A DNA stretch of 64,000 nucleotides, from the NCBI GenBank assembly GCA_900109895.1, contig FOBR01000019.1, forward strand, positions 1-64,000, read 5' to 3'. The notes beneath the pieces are model-generated. The model was not told the DNA's origin, ran no database searches, and saw only the letters and a program-made list of their open reading frames with translations. The stretch comes from a bacterium A37T11. Lineage in GTDB: Bacteria > Bacteroidota > Bacteroidia > Sphingobacteriales > Sphingobacteriaceae. A program made the translations under genes and the position numbers. This document shows, piece by piece, positions 31,454-43,001 of this stretch; the first letter of the stretch is position 1; every line of letters starts with the position of its first letter.

Positions 31454-32041
31454 CTAACCTTTTTCTATGTTCTTCAACGCCTTTTCCAGTAATTCCGGAG
31501 TGACTGGCTTCACCAACGTATAAATCATTCCGCGTTTGGTTTCCTCACGATCGTCTTTGTATTCTTTAAACCGGTTTGTACTCTTTACAAGGCCTTTTAA
31601 TAGGCCGTTTTTCCAAGTGATCGATGTAGCTTGGTTGAGAGGAGGTGGAAGGAGGTTTAAAATGTCGACATTCAGAAATTCATGTCCAACCGAATAATTT
31701 TTTATAGCACGAATTACATAACTGGACATGTTTTTAGTGCCTTTGGTTCCTGCTTTGTTACCCGAGTCTTTAGGGTGATTCAATATGTAATCTTTCGTAA
31801 CTTGAGGTAAATCATCGAAATCAGGGATACCTGTCTCCTCTTTTTTGAAATCGCAATATTCGATACCATATATTAAAGGATAGGCTTCTGCTAATTCTAG
31901 GGTTAGTGTTCTTGAGCCTAACTCTAAACCTCTATACTTAATTTCTTTTTCAACTAAGAGATAGTCTATATCACTTTCACTTAACTTGAAATGTAGGCGG
32001 AATGTTTTAGCCTTAGAGATGAAATGGCTTTGGTTACTCAT
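31454..32041 (-). CDS. Hypothetical protein with XRE-like N-terminus
   Basis: I do not recognise the family. The 195-residue product has an N-terminal segment (about residues 10-60: FRLHFKLSESDIDYLLVEKE, then LGSRTLTLELAEAYPLIYG) with the spacing of an XRE-type HTH. The C-terminal half is soluble with no known motif. It could be a DNA-binding regulator. It abuts the truncated IS66 element, 11 nt from its first base, so its upstream region may have been altered. Confidence 0.5.
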   Translation of the reverse strand: MSNQSHFISKAKTFRLHFKLSESDIDYLLVEKEIKYRGLELGSRTLTLELAEAYPLIYGIEYCDFKKEETGIPDFDDLPQVTKDYILNHPKDSGNKAGTKGTKNMSSYVIRAIKNYSVGHEFLNVDILNLLPPPLNQATSITWKNGLLKGLVKSTNRFKEYKDDREETKRGMIYTLVKPVTPELLEKALKNIEKG

Positions 32042-32052
32042 TTGAAATATAA

Positions 32053-32526
32053 ATGTTAAAATATTTTACCAAACATGTCACTCTCTACCCAGAAGGCATC
32101 AGTGAGGAAGATGTCTGTGTAGGCCAGGAAGACACCTACCAGTTGGAGCATACGCCGGAAAAGCTGGAAGGCATCCGTTACACCCGGCTGAAATACAAAA
32201 AGAAGGCCGAAACAGAGGAAGAAAGTCTGCACAGCGAGATCCTGATTGCCGCCCTTCCGCCGGAAGTCATCAAAAACTCAATGGCCGGTGCCAGCCTGAT
32301 GGCTAAGGTTACCGTAGAGAAGGTGGCAGACCACATGCCTATCCAACGCCAGAAGACAGCCCTGGCGCGTACGGGTATTGACATACCCTATTCCACCATG
32401 ATGGGCTGGTATAACAGGACCTGCCTGATGCTATGGCCGCTGTATGAAGCCTTGAAAAAGGAAGTACTGAGCAGCGGGTACATCCAAATGGACGAGACCC
32501 CGATAAAAGTGATGGACCCGGACACG
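32053..32526 (+). pseudogene. IS66 transposase, N-terminal fragment
   Basis: The 158-residue frame matches the zinc-binding and early catalytic part of IS66 TnpC: LYPEGISEEDVCVGQEDTYQ, IAALPPEVIKNSMAGASLMA, VADHMPIQRQKTAL, and the first catalytic Asp in YIQMDETPIKVMD. It stops where IS21 sequence begins (TGA at 32527-32529). The first codons from the ATG at 32053 are not transposase-like, so the 5' end is also truncated. Confidence 0.8.
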
Positions 32527-33015
32527 TGACGGGGGTCTTTGTAGGCCGGGTTGCCGGCATGGAACCGGGCTTCCAATACCGGATCTTCCAGCTTAAGAAG
32601 CTCATCCAGGCTTTGCCTACTTTCTGCTAGCTTGTGCAGGTACGCCTTTACCGTGTTCTTACTGATGCCCAGTTGGCGGGCAATCGTCTTAATGCCTGTT
32701 TGCTGCGCATGCAGCCTTAATAATTGCTTAATCTGACTCATGGGTCTTGTTTTACCGGCCATCAGCGTTCTATTAGTGATCAAATAATCACCAAATCAAC
32801 CTAAACCTAAATACTATCGCAACAGGGGGCAGCATGCTCCATTACGCAACTGATGATCCCGGGTCAAAGCGAGCAGTATGCTCCAGTGCGCAGTACTTCA
32901 TAAACTTTAAGGGGGTCAGCATCGGCCAGAACGGCATGCCAATACGCGCTTTAATCGAAGATCGGGCGCTTAAAAATTGGTCGGTCCAGAGGGGTCAATA
33001 TCGGCCAGATTATCC
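32527..33015 (-). mobile_element. IS21-family left-end fragment inside IS66 transposase
   Basis: On the minus strand this holds the transposase-binding end of an IS21 element and the first part of istA. Four repeats are visible: 32825-32842 and 32869-32886 share GCAGnATGCTCCA, while 32911-32930 and 32991-33009 share GGGGTCAnnATCGGCCAGA. istB and the other end are missing. No target duplication was seen at the two junctions, so a later deletion or recombination is likely. Confidence 0.7.
32530..32741 (-). pseudogene. istA transposase fragment (IS21 family)
   Basis: About 70 codons from ATG 32741 encode the N-terminal HTH of IstA: MSQIKQLLRLHAQQTGIKTI, then ARQLGISKNTVKAYLHKLAE and NPAYKDPR. 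Right after DPR the frame runs into antisense IS66 sequence. The DDE catalytic domain is absent, so the product cannot catalyse transposition. Confidence 0.75.
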
Positions 33016-33819
33016 AGTACCCACCGGGGTTACTTCTGGGTGGGGCTGGCACCCCCGGAAAACATCGTTTTCTTCGAATACCAGCCCGGAAGAAACCAGG
33101 AAATACCCCAGGAACTGCTGAAAAACTTTTCAGGGGTATTACAAAGTGATGGTTATGAATGTTATAATACCCTATCCAAACGGGAAGACATTACACTGTG
33201 CTGTTGTCTGGCCCATGCCAGGAGGTACTTTGAACAGAGCCAGGGTAATGACAAGGTCCGTTCCACCCATGCCCTGAACGTATTCGGCAGGTTATATGAT
33301 ATTGAGCGGGAGCATAAAGAGAGTACACCGGAAGAACGACTTGCCGCGCGGCAGCAATATGCCAAACCCACCTGGCAGGAGTTCGGTCGCTGGCTGGAGG
33401 ACCAGGTGGGCTTGCTTGCCCCTGGCAGCGCGATCCATAAGGCTTTTGCCTATACCATGCGCCGCTTTAAAAGACTGAGCCGATATATGGATGACGGAAC
33501 CATAAAAGCCGATAATAATCTGATTGAAAATAGTATACGGCCAGCGGCTCTCGGCAAAAAGAACTATATGTTCTGTGGCTCGCATGAGGGGGCCAGACGC
33601 GTAGCCTTGCTCTACTCATTAATCGGCACTTGCCGCATGCATGGCATCAACCCTGTGACCTGGATGACAGAAGTACTGCGCAGGATCAGCACACACCCCA
33701 AAGAAAGCATCCACGAGTTGCTGCCCAATCATTGGAAAGAGCTTAACCTGGAGCTTGCAAAGAACGAACCCCTACCCGTCATCGTCAGGGTCGATAAATC
33801 AAAAAGAAGAACGGCTTAA
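33016..33819 (+). pseudogene. IS66 transposase, C-terminal fragment
   Basis: The frame resumes at STHRGYFWVGLAPPENIVFF and contains LQSDGYECYNTLSK (second catalytic Asp region), CLAHARRYFEQ, and DNNLIENSIRPAALGKKNYM with the last catalytic Glu. It ends with a typical IS66 tail (SIHELLPNHWKEL). In-frame joining with 32053-32526 would restore most of the catalytic core, but the separating 490 bp has stops. Confidence 0.8.
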
Positions 33820-33974: not shown

Positions 33975-35639
33975 TTAATATTTCAAATGTATAGCTACCG
34001 CCGTTCTATCCATATATGTCATGTGATAACTTTCTCCATCGTATAACAAACTTTTGAAATCAAGTTTGTTTTGACCTACCTTAAAATTTTTAAATTTATA
34101 CTCTATAGATGACTCCCCATAAAGAAAAATATTTAAACTATCGCATATACTTGATATTTTTAAATTAAAATTCTGGTCTGAATCTAAGTTCTCAAGCTTA
34201 AATAAATAATATCCTGTACTCTTTTTTTTTGAGAACATATTAACACCAATATATGGAGAGCTATTGAAATTATCCACACTAATCGGAATAAATGATGATT
34301 GGATAGATAAAGACAATGAACCATTTTTTAATACATTCTTAATATCCCTTTTGTCCATAGCATGAAGAAAGGTGAAATTATTTATTGAAGTGGCAATTAA
34401 TGGTGAAGAATTTCTTGTCCAATAAAGAATATCAAAAGCGTCTACCGAGCGTTTATGAAGCGGATCAGTCGGAACATCTGTATCAAGTAATCCAAATGTA
34501 ATATATCGATCTTTTTCAAAGAATGTCTGGATAATCTTATCATCGTTCCAAAACAAGTAACCATTAGAAATATTTTGAGTACATTGTTCCAAAATATTTC
34601 CAATTTTATTAAAATCTTCGGGTATTCTAAAGATCCTTTTATTAGGTCCAGATCTATACTTACCTTTCGTTACTTCAGAACCAATATTGACATAATCTTC
34701 AGGATAAGCTTTGTAAATATAGTGCCCTAATCGTTTGACTTTAGATGATAAAGTATTACCAACCATCTTCTCAAGATGTGCATCATGGCCAAAAATTAAA
34801 ACTTTAGCTGAACGTTGATTTCTTATCCAGTTTAAGTTTTTAAACATACTATTATCTCTTAAATCATCGGGGTGATTGTATGATAACTCAATAGAGCACC
34901 GAAAATTTTCTAAGACATTAACAAATAAGTCGATTGTCGCCATCTTATCTTTCAACCTGATATTAGATAATGCAGCACTTAGAGAATCACAAATTCCATT
35001 TATTTGATTCAAGCTATATTTTTGTTTATAAATATTGTAGAAAAAAGGTAAACCTGAAATATCATTCAAGGCTTGTTTTTGGAAAGAAGTAAGTTCAATA
35101 TTAATTTTATTTGCCATCTTTAAAATCTGAAATGCTGCGGATCTAGTATTAAAAATATCCAATCCTAATATCCAAATTTTATGATTATTAGCTTTTGTTT
35201 TATTAAACTCTTGTACCCACAAAATAAGTTCTTTTTCTTTTTTTGAGGAATAAGGAAAAAGCATCTGTCCAATATGAACGCTGCTATCACCGGTAATGAA
35301 ATAATTAGTGGACAAACTTTCACAAAAATCTCTTTCGGCAAAAGCGATGACGTTAATCTTCCCTTTCTCCACCAACATCTTGGCTAAGTCACAAAAAGCA
35401 TCGCGAATTTCTTGTGTACCATGTGTCGCTTCACCAAAACCAATGATAGACTTATTGACAAATGCTTCATTCAGCTTTTCGATGGTCCTATTTTGCTCAA
35501 AAATAGCTCCTGTAAATAAATTTTCATCTACTTTGTTTTTAATCGATTTTATGGAAAAATACCAATATATTTTAAAGCATGAATATGAAATTATTATTAA
35601 ACCTAGAATAATTATAATAGAAATTTTAAAAATCCTCAT
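33975..35639 (-). CDS. Membrane-anchored erythromycin-esterase-like protein
   Basis: A 554-residue protein with an N-terminal membrane helix (about residues 3-24) and an erythromycin-esterase/EreA-like domain (about 50-400). Conserved residues appear in GFGEATHGTQEIRD (His), FAERDFCESL (Glu) and FGHDAHLEKMVG (His). A beta-rich C-terminal part of about 140 residues follows. EreA-type enzymes open macrolide lactones, but most homologues have unknown substrates. The gene is much richer in A+T than its neighbours, a sign of transfer. ATG at 35639 was chosen; a TTG two codons upstream lies in a promoter-like element. Confidence 0.75.
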   Translation of the reverse strand: MRIFKISIIIILGLIIISYSCFKIYWYFSIKSIKNKVDENLFTGAIFEQNRTIEKLNEAFVNKSIIGFGEATHGTQEIRDAFCDLAKMLVEKGKINVIAFAERDFCESLSTNYFITGDSSVHIGQMLFPYSSKKEKELILWVQEFNKTKANNHKIWILGLDIFNTRSAAFQILKMANKINIELTSFQKQALNDISGLPFFYNIYKQKYSLNQINGICDSLSAALSNIRLKDKMATIDLFVNVLENFRCSIELSYNHPDDLRDNSMFKNLNWIRNQRSAKVLIFGHDAHLEKMVGNTLSSKVKRLGHYIYKAYPEDYVNIGSEVTKGKYRSGPNKRIFRIPEDFNKIGNILEQCTQNISNGYLFWNDDKIIQTFFEKDRYITFGLLDTDVPTDPLHKRSVDAFDILYWTRNSSPLIATSINNFTFLHAMDKRDIKNVLKNGSLSLSIQSSFIPISVDNFNSSPYIGVNMFSKKKSTGYYLFKLENLDSDQNFNLKISSICDSLNIFLYGESSIEYKFKNFKVGQNKLDFKSLLYDGESYHMTYMDRTAVAIHLKY

Positions 35640-35642
35640 TAA

Positions 35643-35650
35643 CAAATTTA
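35643..35650 (-). promoter_or_regulatory. TAnnTTTG element directly before the esterase-like gene
   Basis: The minus strand reads TAAATTTG, then TTA and the ATG. Only 3 nt separate it from the start codon. No good -33 box was seen. Confidence 0.4.
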
Positions 35651-35945
35651 TTATGCGCTCTGTTGATTTGTAGGCTCAATTTGAATAAGTTCTTATATTT
35701 AATAAATTTGAGCGAATTCTCCTTTATTAAAAATAAACTTAATTGATTAATGTTCTAGAGATATTTTGGTTACTGATTTAAAGGTACTCCTAGTAATTCG
35801 CTAAATGATAAATAGTTTATCCAATACGACTCATAATTATCTGCATAAAATTAACAGATAACTTTGTAACCAAAAAATCACATGCGTTATTAATGTAAAA
35901 AAATTAGTCCCAATCCTAAAAACGAATTAGCACCTACTAGTTAAT
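35651..35945. other. AT-rich gene-free spacer
   Basis: About 295 bp of very AT-rich DNA between the esterase-like gene and the terminator of the lanthipeptide-like gene. No reading frame, repeat or RNA was recognised. Confidence 0.5.
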
Positions 35946-35975
35946 GAAAAAGCTTCTGAGAATTATCAGAAGCTT
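35946..35975 (-). terminator. Terminator of the lanthipeptide-like precursor gene
   Basis: AAGCTTCTGA (35950-35959) and TCAGAAGCTT (35966-35975) pair exactly around a 6-nt loop. On the minus strand the stem is followed by a T run. It lies about 20 nt past the precursor stop codon and separates that gene from the esterase-like gene. Confidence 0.75.
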
Positions 35976-35994
35976 ATAATAAAACATCTAATTC

Positions 35995-36234
35995 CTAACA
36001 ACCAGTAAGAGTTGTACTTTGGCAAGAATATCCATGCAGCAAGGTACAATAAACAATTGTTGTTGTGTCATAAGGCGTCGTTGTATAAGGAGTGCAACAG
36101 GTGAAGCCGGTACAACTATCATAAGAGGTTGTCCACATATTACCCTCTCCTCCTTTTACAAGCTTTGCTTCACTTTCTGACAAAGTAGAAATAATTTTTT
36201 TGTTTAATTTAAGTTTTTTTTCATAACACTTCAT
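35995..36234 (-). CDS. Lanthipeptide-like RiPP precursor peptide
   Basis: A 79-residue peptide with the layout of Bacteroidota class I lanthipeptide precursors. The leader (residues 1-29) has KKLKLNKKIISTLSESEAK and ends in the double-glycine cleavage site VKGG. The predicted 50-residue core has six Cys (core positions 12, 17, 18, 34, 42, 50), 15 Thr and 4 Ser, the residues needed for lanthionine rings. No LanB, LanC, LanM, radical-SAM or peptidase-transporter gene is in the window, so it depends on enzymes elsewhere or is an orphan. It has its own promoter and terminator. Confidence 0.7.
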   Translation of the reverse strand: MKCYEKKLKLNKKIISTLSESEAKLVKGGEGNMWTTSYDSCTGFTCCTPYTTTPYDTTTIVYCTLLHGYSCQSTTLTGC

Positions 36235-36255: not shown

Positions 36256-36286
36256 CAAATTTATTAAATAGATTTCAAAAACACAA
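36256..36286 (-). promoter_or_regulatory. Promoter of the lanthipeptide-like gene
   Basis: On the minus strand a TTG (rc of 36284-36286) is followed by a 20-nt spacer and TAAATTTG (rc of 36256-36263). This fits the Bacteroidota -33/-7 pattern with canonical spacing. The start codon is 21 nt past the -7 element. Confidence 0.65.
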
Positions 36287-36857: not shown

Positions 36858-37085
36858 GTGGCCAAAGAAATGACACAAGCACGCAACCTATTAATGTGTT
36901 TCATAAAATTCCATGGCGGCATGTTGCTTTTCACAAAAGACTTCAACGTCTCCTTTACCAATAATACCGCTGAGCAGGCTGTCAGCATGATGGAGATTAA
37001 ACAAAAATTATCCGGATGCTTACGAAGTAAACAGGGAGTCCAGACTTCGTCACTACAAGAAGCTATATTGTCACGACAAGAATAA
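36858..37085 (+). pseudogene. IS66 transposase C-terminal remnant
   Basis: The frame has TKDFNVSFTNNTAEQAVSMM, then EIKQKLSGCLRSKQG, which matches the conserved C-terminal block of IS66 transposases (pattern DFxVPFTNNxAEQDxRMxKxKQKISGCFRSxxG), including the catalytic Glu region. Everything before it is degraded and the tail ends early at 37085. It is a different copy from the element at 32053-33878. Confidence 0.7.
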
Positions 37086-41948: not shown

Positions 41949-43001
41949 TTAGAAAACGACAAAACGTTCAAACTGTAGTGTTACACGCTCACCTGCTTTC
42001 AACCCTGAAAGTTGGGTATTAATTATTTTGAGGGATATTTGATTTATTTCGACAATCAGTTCTTCGTAAAAGCCTTTAAATAAAACAGCCTTTACTACGC
42101 CTGCTCCGTGGTTATCCGGCTGTGCCTGGATCCATTCAGGATGGATGGCGGCCGTTTTTCCCGGGGAGGCATTAAGTTTAAGCAAAGTAGCTCCTTCTGA
42201 CGAAAGGATATTACTTTTGGCCAGGAGCGTAGCTGCATAGGCATTGGGTGGATTTTTATAGATTTCGGCGGGTTTACCTGCCGCCATGACCTTGCCTTCC
42301 CTAAGAATCAATAAAGCGTCTGCGATGGCCAGAACTTCAGATGGGTCATGTGATACCAGTACTACCGTCAGTCCATCTTCATCGACCAATTTACGAATAT
42401 CTTGCTGTAACCTATCCCTGAAAGCTGCATCCACTTGGTTAAAGGGTTCGTCCATGAGCAAAACTTCCGGGTCAGTTACCAGCGCACGTGCAATAGCTAC
42501 ACGCTGGCGCTCACCGCCGCTTAAATCAGATATGCGTTGTGAGGACAGGTGAGATATGCTTAGTCGATCAAGCATATTGCGTGTCTTTTCTTCTTTAGCA
42601 GTTAGATCAGTATTCGAAAGCCGGGAGGCAACATTGTCCCAAACATTGGCGTAGGTATTCAGATCGTCAAAATGTTGGGAAACCATCCGCATGGCTGGAT
42701 GACCGGGAATGAGTTTCTCCAACGGGCCCTTTACTTTCCAGCCCCGGTAGCGCACCTCTCCTCCGTCTGGCTCCAACAAACCATATAGTAAACGTAATAA
42801 CGTACTTTTTCCGCTGCCGCTTTCTCCGATAATAGCCGTAATTTCTCCTTCAGCGATGTCTGCATGAATGTGCTGGATAGCGGCTACGTTTCGCTTATCT
42901 GCATAATATTTGCTGAGGTCATCAGCATGGATAAGAGCCAAGCCTTCCAATTGTACATCTGGAGAAGTGGGGCTGCAAGAAATGGTAGCGGATGCTGACA
43001 T
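41949..43001 (-). CDS. ABC transporter ATP-binding protein (orphan)
   Basis: A 350-residue ABC ATPase of the PotA/FbpC-like group. Walker A is GESGSGKSTLLRLLYG, the signature LSGGERQRVAIARALV, Walker B VLLMDEPFNQVDA and the switch VLVSHDPSEVLA. A C-terminal TOBE-like beta domain (about 260-350) follows. No permease or binding-protein gene is adjacent, so the transported substrate cannot be inferred. About 70 nt separate it from the barrel gene. Confidence 0.88.
   Translation of the reverse strand: MSASATISCSPTSPDVQLEGLALIHADDLSKYYADKRNVAAIQHIHADIAEGEITAIIGESGSGKSTLLRLLYGLLEPDGGEVRYRGWKVKGPLEKLIPGHPAMRMVSQHFDDLNTYANVWDNVASRLSNTDLTAKEEKTRNMLDRLSISHLSSQRISDLSGGERQRVAIARALVTDPEVLLMDEPFNQVDAAFRDRLQQDIRKLVDEDGLTVVLVSHDPSEVLAIADALLILREGKVMAAGKPAEIYKNPPNAYAATLLAKSNILSSEGATLLKLNASPGKTAAIHPEWIQAQPDNHGAGVVKAVLFKGFYEELIVEINQISLKIINTQLSGLKAGERVTLQFERFVVF

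Follow-up and report, generated by a model that had tools for sequence, protein, structure and literature searches.

Class I lanthipeptides as such are already known from Bacteroidota, and those of the Chryseobacterium ChmABC and Runella RuiABC clusters have been made in E. coli, as told in the part of the report considered here (PMC9993889). The locus described below follows the same LanA, LanB and LanC logic, but whereas the ChmABC and RuiABC clusters, by that part of the report, keep all three genes, it does not. For another set, from Bacteroidales, no LanB is reported in the portion of the article considered (PMC10352776). The erythromycin esterase family (EreA/B/C/D, Bacillus cereus BcR135; PDB 6xcq and 2rad) has been connected with ribosomally synthesized peptides by a graspetide study, one locus of which includes a homologue; in the section considered, its authors suggest modification or resistance as the role of that homologue (PMC8939145). 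A literature search for erythromycin esterase together with lanthipeptide, RiPP or lantibiotic returned this graspetide precedent only and no pairing of Ere with lanthipeptide operons. We analysed a stretch of 64,000 nucleotides (the window) from the Bacteroidota bacterium A37T11 (Sphingobacteriaceae) and found in it a precursor gene that has neither a cyclase nor a fitting dehydratase but does have a hydrolase partner, which points to a pairing of Ere-type hydrolases with lanthipeptide operons. The recurrence of such hydrolases in lanthipeptide clusters of Bacteroidota is modestly new and its statistical support is thin; should Ere-type enzymes indeed act on lanthipeptides, a new activity, in tailoring or in resistance, would be added to those known.

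The precursor gene (positions 35995-36234, minus strand) encodes 79 amino acids, MKCYEKKLKLNKKIISTLSESEAKLVKGG as the leader and EGNMWTTSYDSCTGFTCCTPYTTTPYDTTTIVYCTLLHGYSCQSTTLTGC as the core, in a reading frame that is intact and without visible decay. An earlier note on this DNA had reported a 79-residue frame with a leader ending in VKGG and a 50-residue core containing six Cys and 19 Ser/Thr; all these figures were reproduced on recounting, with the leader comprising residues 1-29 and the core, which contains TTSYDSCTGFTCC, residues 30-79, and the strand, absent from the note, is minus. Its designation of the peptide as lanthipeptide-like agrees with a match to the NCBIfam model of class I lanthipeptide leaders, NF038153 (28.4 bits, cut-off 22), which places the peptide in this family, and with a core motif common to five other genomes. 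This was the single NF038153 match at E 1 in the host assembly (G000), a draft of 5.09 Mb in 60 contigs that is 97.5% complete. No match to the precursor was obtained in a Pfam search, and no plasmid relatives were found at E 0.01; two further NCBIfam models, TIGR04149 (16.2 bits, cut-off 25) and NF038158, scored under their cut-offs.

A tblastn search with the precursor against the first loci detected two precursors of Mucilaginibacter sp. BT774 (G206), 54.8% identical over 42 aa and 45.7% over 46 aa, both from one cluster and aligned through the leader and the start of the core. Of 400 genomes searched in the order, 29 gave matches, mostly via the leader, to a profile built from these three sequences (A1); the core motif occurred in only four of them, namely the window's own genome, G206 and two members of the window's family, G265 and G692. 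With three further loci obtained by scanning named genomes for the CTGF pattern, the motif S/T-x3-C-T-G-[FST]-x-C-C was present in 11 precursors from six genomes including that of the window, the others being Mucilaginibacter sp. BT774 (whose loci L055 and L110 are the same), a Dokdonia MAG, Ancylomarina euxinus, G265 and G692. In all 11 precursors the fourth position ahead of the first motif Cys is Ser or Thr, which was no criterion of selection, whereas the CTG part was partly selected, Dokdonia and Ancylomarina having been found via the CTGF pattern and the rest via CTG[FST]xCC. The tails vary, the number of Cys per core ranging from three to eight, and G692 has almost no core left after the motif. 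The motif was absent from 52 of the 58 distinct leader-plus-Cys peptides in the surveyed loci, so the Cys and Ser/Thr pattern, whose conservation among homologues the earlier note had made a test of its reading, is a property of this subfamily and not of the whole leader family. The S-x3-C-T spacing is reminiscent of nisin's first ring, although a second ring would be one residue longer; we regard this likeness as only a lead. The lipid II motif CTPG, mentioned in the part of PMC12506125 considered, is absent.

All five other core-motif loci carry LanC, LanB or both. Clusters with CTGFxCC cores that retain LanB and LanC were found in Mucilaginibacter BT774, Ancylomarina and Dokdonia, and the G265 locus seems to be partly decayed, since its precursor falls under every leader cut-off, its LanC is matched over the latter two thirds of the model only and the stretch scanned contains no LanB. 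These neighbours argue against the view that the window peptide is a radical-SAM-modified or unmodified GG-leader peptide and not a lanthipeptide at all, a view for which the weak TIGR04149 match might be cited but which we judge very improbable, that match being under its cut-off. Radical-SAM maturation was also rejected as a candidate in its own right, because of the same score and because no SPASM domain exceeded its cut-off genome-wide, one reaching 19.3 against 21.5 bits.

An HMM scan of the window detected no LanB, LanC or C39 protein, with only an ABC ATPase (41949-43001) scoring, under the transporter model, in keeping with an earlier statement that no maturation or export gene lies in the window. 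Neither LanB nor LanC was found on the precursor's own 120-kb contig, and LanC (PF05147) had no match genome-wide at E 0.01, although in a draft of this completeness and contig number LanC could sit in a gap. A single LanB was present in the genome, on contig C50 (C50:20810-23878 = L003:8811-11879; PF04738, 422.6 bits), full length, with both Pfam domains and with a host-like G+C content of 49.8%. The genome also encodes two C39 transporters, both outside the window, and the one on contig C52 has a different, 76-aa GG-leader-like peptide about 0.7 kb upstream (L038:17714-17944; C52, ~102 kb), which has no NCBIfam match. The latter is followed by an AraC-TlpA-SusD-SusC module (L038:18653 onward), paralogous to a module beside LanB on C50. 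The genome-wide enzyme search that the earlier note had proposed thus gave a divided answer: one LanB and two C39 transporters exist, but the LanB is on another contig and of another lineage, LanC was not found and the C52 transporter lies near another GG peptide.

The lineage of the LanB was judged from a tree of 60 rows (midpoint-rooted, built by a quick method with SH-aLRT support only, and with several deep forks open), in which the C50 enzyme came out next to eight genus g14 enzymes that form a clade (fork support 93), while the LanBs of BT774 and G692 formed a pair (support 100) in the opposite half, together with those of Dokdonia and Ancylomarina; the C50 sequence itself sits on a long branch (1.42) and is of unusual composition. 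On this tree the C50 LanB was rejected as the cognate enzyme of the precursor. Its surroundings, a small receiver protein, a LytTR-type regulator and a histidine kinase, are like those of the g14 clade but without LanC. In three other loci (L167, L168 and L175), too, a LytTR-type regulator and a histidine kinase accompany a full-length LanB, and LanC was absent from the portion covered. The receiver-LanB pair on C50 is closely preceded by an open reading frame for a Cys-less 51-aa peptide ending in SISSMTFTTSSHTR (L003:8278-8433), which could be a candidate cyclase-independent substrate of this LanB; no homologue of it was found in the surveyed loci.

The precursor might nevertheless be matured in trans, with the C50 LanB dehydrating it, one of the two C39 transporters cutting and exporting it, and rings forming without LanC or not at all. 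The domain completeness of that LanB, the presence of the transporters and the intact precursor gene with its terminator would all fit such a route, but the enzyme belongs to another lineage and has a host-like base composition, the precursors of clusters related to it look different (three loci), LanC has no match in the genome and the C52 transporter has its own small GG peptide nearby, and we therefore consider maturation in trans distinctly unlikely. The genome as assembled is without the enzymes that this precursor subfamily has elsewhere, and with LanC missing and the only LanB belonging to another lineage and another contig, the peptide is most likely not matured.

Directly downstream of the precursor, on the same strand and about 350 bp away, is a gene that the earlier note had overlooked, encoding an erythromycin-esterase-family hydrolase (33975-35645, minus strand; PF05139, 57.4 bits, cut-off 26.4) of 556 aa from a TTG at 35645, or 554 aa from an ATG at 35639. 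The description of the precursor as an orphan is consequently half right, since a gene of a kind present in other lanthipeptide operons stands beside it. It is the only PF05139 match in the genome at E 0.001, and it lies at this short distance from the genome's only leader match. Residues E72, H75 and H290 are invariant in seven of seven aligned family members, which together with the Pfam score assigns the protein to PF05139; it matches the B. cereus structures 2rad/3b55 by sequence (E 6.4e-17), and the N-terminal part of its predicted model matches the folds of 3b55, 2rad, 2qgm and EreC (6xcq). No match was obtained for about 170 C-terminal residues, and overall the predicted structure is of poor quality (mean pLDDT 59.5, with most of residues 324-554 below 50). 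Like the described family, the protein thus has the N-terminal fold and the Glu/His residues, but it differs in having a C-terminal extension and an extra N-terminal hydrophobic stretch, which is long by eye and corresponds to a helix at residues 2-36 in the predicted model. The EreA model of NCBIfam scored 10.8 bits against a cut-off of 750, and neither EreB nor EreD was listed at E 1; by the NCBIfam test, therefore, it is not a macrolide-resistance Ere.

To place the hydrolase among lanthipeptide loci, about 20 kb around each of 62 leader or A1-profile matches was surveyed; LanB was present in 57 of the 62 loci, LanC in 52 and a protein matching the C39 transporter model in 36. The window locus resembles this leader family in that its leader exceeds the curated cut-off and has a GG cleavage site, but differs from it in having neither LanB nor LanC. 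Four low-scoring matches (G120, G228, G191 and G154:C1:1598649) fell outside the survey, L110 was left out as a duplicate of L055, and several genomes contribute two loci. L041, L059, L073 and L133, counted as loci without LanB, are also without LanC, and three of them are doubtful leaders or lie at a contig end. The LanC, LanB, C39 and HlyD labels come from our own cluster models, of which seven LanC, two LanB, two C39 transporters and one HlyD were checked with Pfam, so the C39 count may include other ABC proteins. Seventeen further loci, found by LanB and hence uninformative on LanB frequency, brought the set to 79.

Ere (PF05139) occurred in three of the 79 loci, each time adjoining LanC, in the orders Luc-Ere-LanC-A-A-LanB plus C39-HlyD (BT774), precursor-Ere-LanC-LanB-C39-HlyD (G554, L179) and LanC-Ere-one ORF-LanB (G648). 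Pfam gave PF05139 scores of 196.4, 58.5 and 108.6 bits, respectively, and confirmed LanC in all three; in G554 the precursor (NF038153, 53.1 bits), LanB, C39 and HlyD were confirmed as well by NCBIfam or Pfam. The three Ere proteins all start, by eye, with a signal-like stretch. S41 peptidases were present in 14 of the 79 loci, including the CTGFxCC loci of Dokdonia, Ancylomarina and G265 (Pfam; L108:11586-13286, L109:6978-8693 and L111:10170-11915), and, by coordinates, were immediately beside LanC in L108, L169, L174 and L176. No locus in the set contains both Ere and S41, and neither was found in 40 control stretches of 20 kb each, whose round-number coordinates were picked by hand in 22 of these genomes. 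As a bare count, three of 79 against none of 40 is no enrichment by itself and proves little, and the 14 of 79 for S41 does better; members of these same loci, three for Ere and three for S41, served as seeds of the two models and are counted among the hits, and Pfam checks cover all three Ere hits and three of the 14 S41 proteins. What links Ere with lanthipeptides is, rather, the adjacency to LanC in all three cases and the order of precursor and then Ere that the window shares with G554. The BT774 cluster (L055/L110) is the closest in its precursors (46-55% identical over 42-46 aa), its CTGFxCC core and its possession of an Ere gene, but it is complete, has a G+C content of 44-47% and a different gene order, and its Ere is only 19% identical, over the alignment, to that of the window. 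G554 has the precursor and Ere on the same strand as in the window, but its core is without CTGxxCC, its precursor-Ere gap is about 24 bp compared with about 350 bp and its operon is complete.

When 395 genomes of the class were searched with the window Ere, three other genomes (G452, G020 and G616) were found at 1e-12, scoring 62.9, 53.3 and 51.1 bits, and the BT774 Ere scored 45.2 bits; identity to six other Ere proteins was 18-23%. Scans of 20-kb stretches around the Ere genes of G452, G020 and G616 revealed no LanB, LanC or leader. The window Ere need not, therefore, be a lanthipeptide gene by descent, and it is its position that argues for the link. Both genes could have come to this place, or been kept, in their own right; the Ere would then be a hydrolase, for resistance or for something else, that does not descend from lanthipeptide clusters, with the precursor as a passenger in the same AT-rich segment. 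The best-scoring relatives outside lanthipeptide loci and the retention of the putative catalytic residues E72, H75 and H290 are consistent with this explanation, as is the modification or self-resistance offered for the graspetide-locus homologue in the part of PMC8939145 considered. Against it are the distance of 350 bp between the genome's only PF05139 gene and its only leader match, and the presence of an Ere gene in the cluster of the closest precursors, those of BT774; moreover, the genus is represented by one genome, and an Ere activity is putative, being predicted from the sequence. On balance this explanation appears unlikely.

The two genes together form an AT-rich and seemingly foreign island (33975-36234) with a G+C content of 29.5%, whereas the window as a whole has 45.1%, with an sd of 3.4 points among stretches of 2.26 kb; the lowest non-overlapping stretch of that length outside the island has 40.5%. 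The clusters of Dokdonia and Ancylomarina, at 29.6 and 29.5% G+C, are like the island in this respect, whereas the BT774 genes are not. On the left is an IS66 transposase in two pieces (32053-32529 and 32977-33819, together 32053-33819, plus strand; PF03050 and PF13817), the open reading frame of which ends 156 bp from the Ere stop, where the remainder of an operon would be expected, and on the right is a C-terminal IS66 transposase fragment (36858-37085, plus strand; PF03050, 27.3 bits). Flanking IS66 remnants had been noticed before and were confirmed by these matches, and the accompanying proposal of transfer, or of loss of the cluster, is supported by the low-G+C island between them. Comparison of the right-hand fragment with the left IS66 at the DNA level gave no match at E 1, and a search for a repeat family joining the left and right pieces found none. 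Between the two left-hand pieces there is, by eye, a sequence like the N-terminus of IS21 IstA (32388-32783, minus strand), and beside the IS66 piece a 195-aa open reading frame (31454-32041, minus strand) that has no Pfam match at E 0.01.

Taken together, these data may be best explained by a class I lanthipeptide operon that was acquired horizontally and truncated, keeping the precursor and Ere genes but probably no longer yielding a matured peptide, and we consider this reading likely. The genes of the original operon would have stood in an order like precursor, Ere-family hydrolase, LanC, LanB, C39 transporter and HlyD; the operon would have arrived from a low-G+C bacterium and been interrupted by IS66-type elements immediately behind the hydrolase gene, so that the window would now hold its surviving end. 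Because the genus is a single genome in the collection, there is no intact or empty site to compare, and the cut is therefore inferred. The precursor gene being whole also speaks against a remnant, as do the best-scoring Ere relatives outside lanthipeptide loci, the doubt over a common transcript of precursor and Ere and the chance of a LanC in an assembly gap. In the intact operon, LanB would dehydrate Ser and Thr residues of the core, and thioether rings would be formed by LanC, probably joining Ser/Thr and Cys inside TTSxxxCTGFxCC. Cleavage behind GG and export would fall to the C39 transporter, and the Ere-type hydrolase, anchored or secreted, would work on the peptide once it is outside or shield the producing cell. 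A bolder interpretation, to which we give low probability, is that these loci belong to an undescribed class I cluster type of Bacteroidota, in which an exported or anchored Ere beside LanC would take the place of S41 and act on the peptide in tailoring or self-protection; one line of it would have S/T-x3-C-T-G-F-x-C-C cores, which share the spacing of the nisin first ring and so may have lipid II or a similar molecule as their target, and the window would keep hydrolase and peptide as a mobile pair.

As for expression, the precursor had been credited with a canonical -33/-7 promoter, which was an overstatement. A Bacteroidota -7 element, TAAATTTG, is located at 36256-36263 (minus strand), fits the consensus perfectly and ends 21 nt 5' of the ATG, but no -33 TTTG was found at a spacing of 17-22 nt from it, the nearest candidates being ATTG at 20 nt and TTGT at 19 nt, and TAnnTTTG alone occurs 77 times over both strands of the window. 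The strong terminator reported together with that promoter was, by contrast, verified by folding and a shuffle test, so that of the view that the gene looks expressed the promoter side is weak and the terminator side fair. With this terminator and about 350 bp between them, the precursor and Ere genes may not form one transcript. The terminator is intrinsic (35950-35975, minus strand), its hairpin and U-run lying 20-45 nt past the precursor stop, and consists of a 10-pair stem with a loop of six and a T-run, with a stability (z -2.98) that was equalled by none of 200 shuffles.
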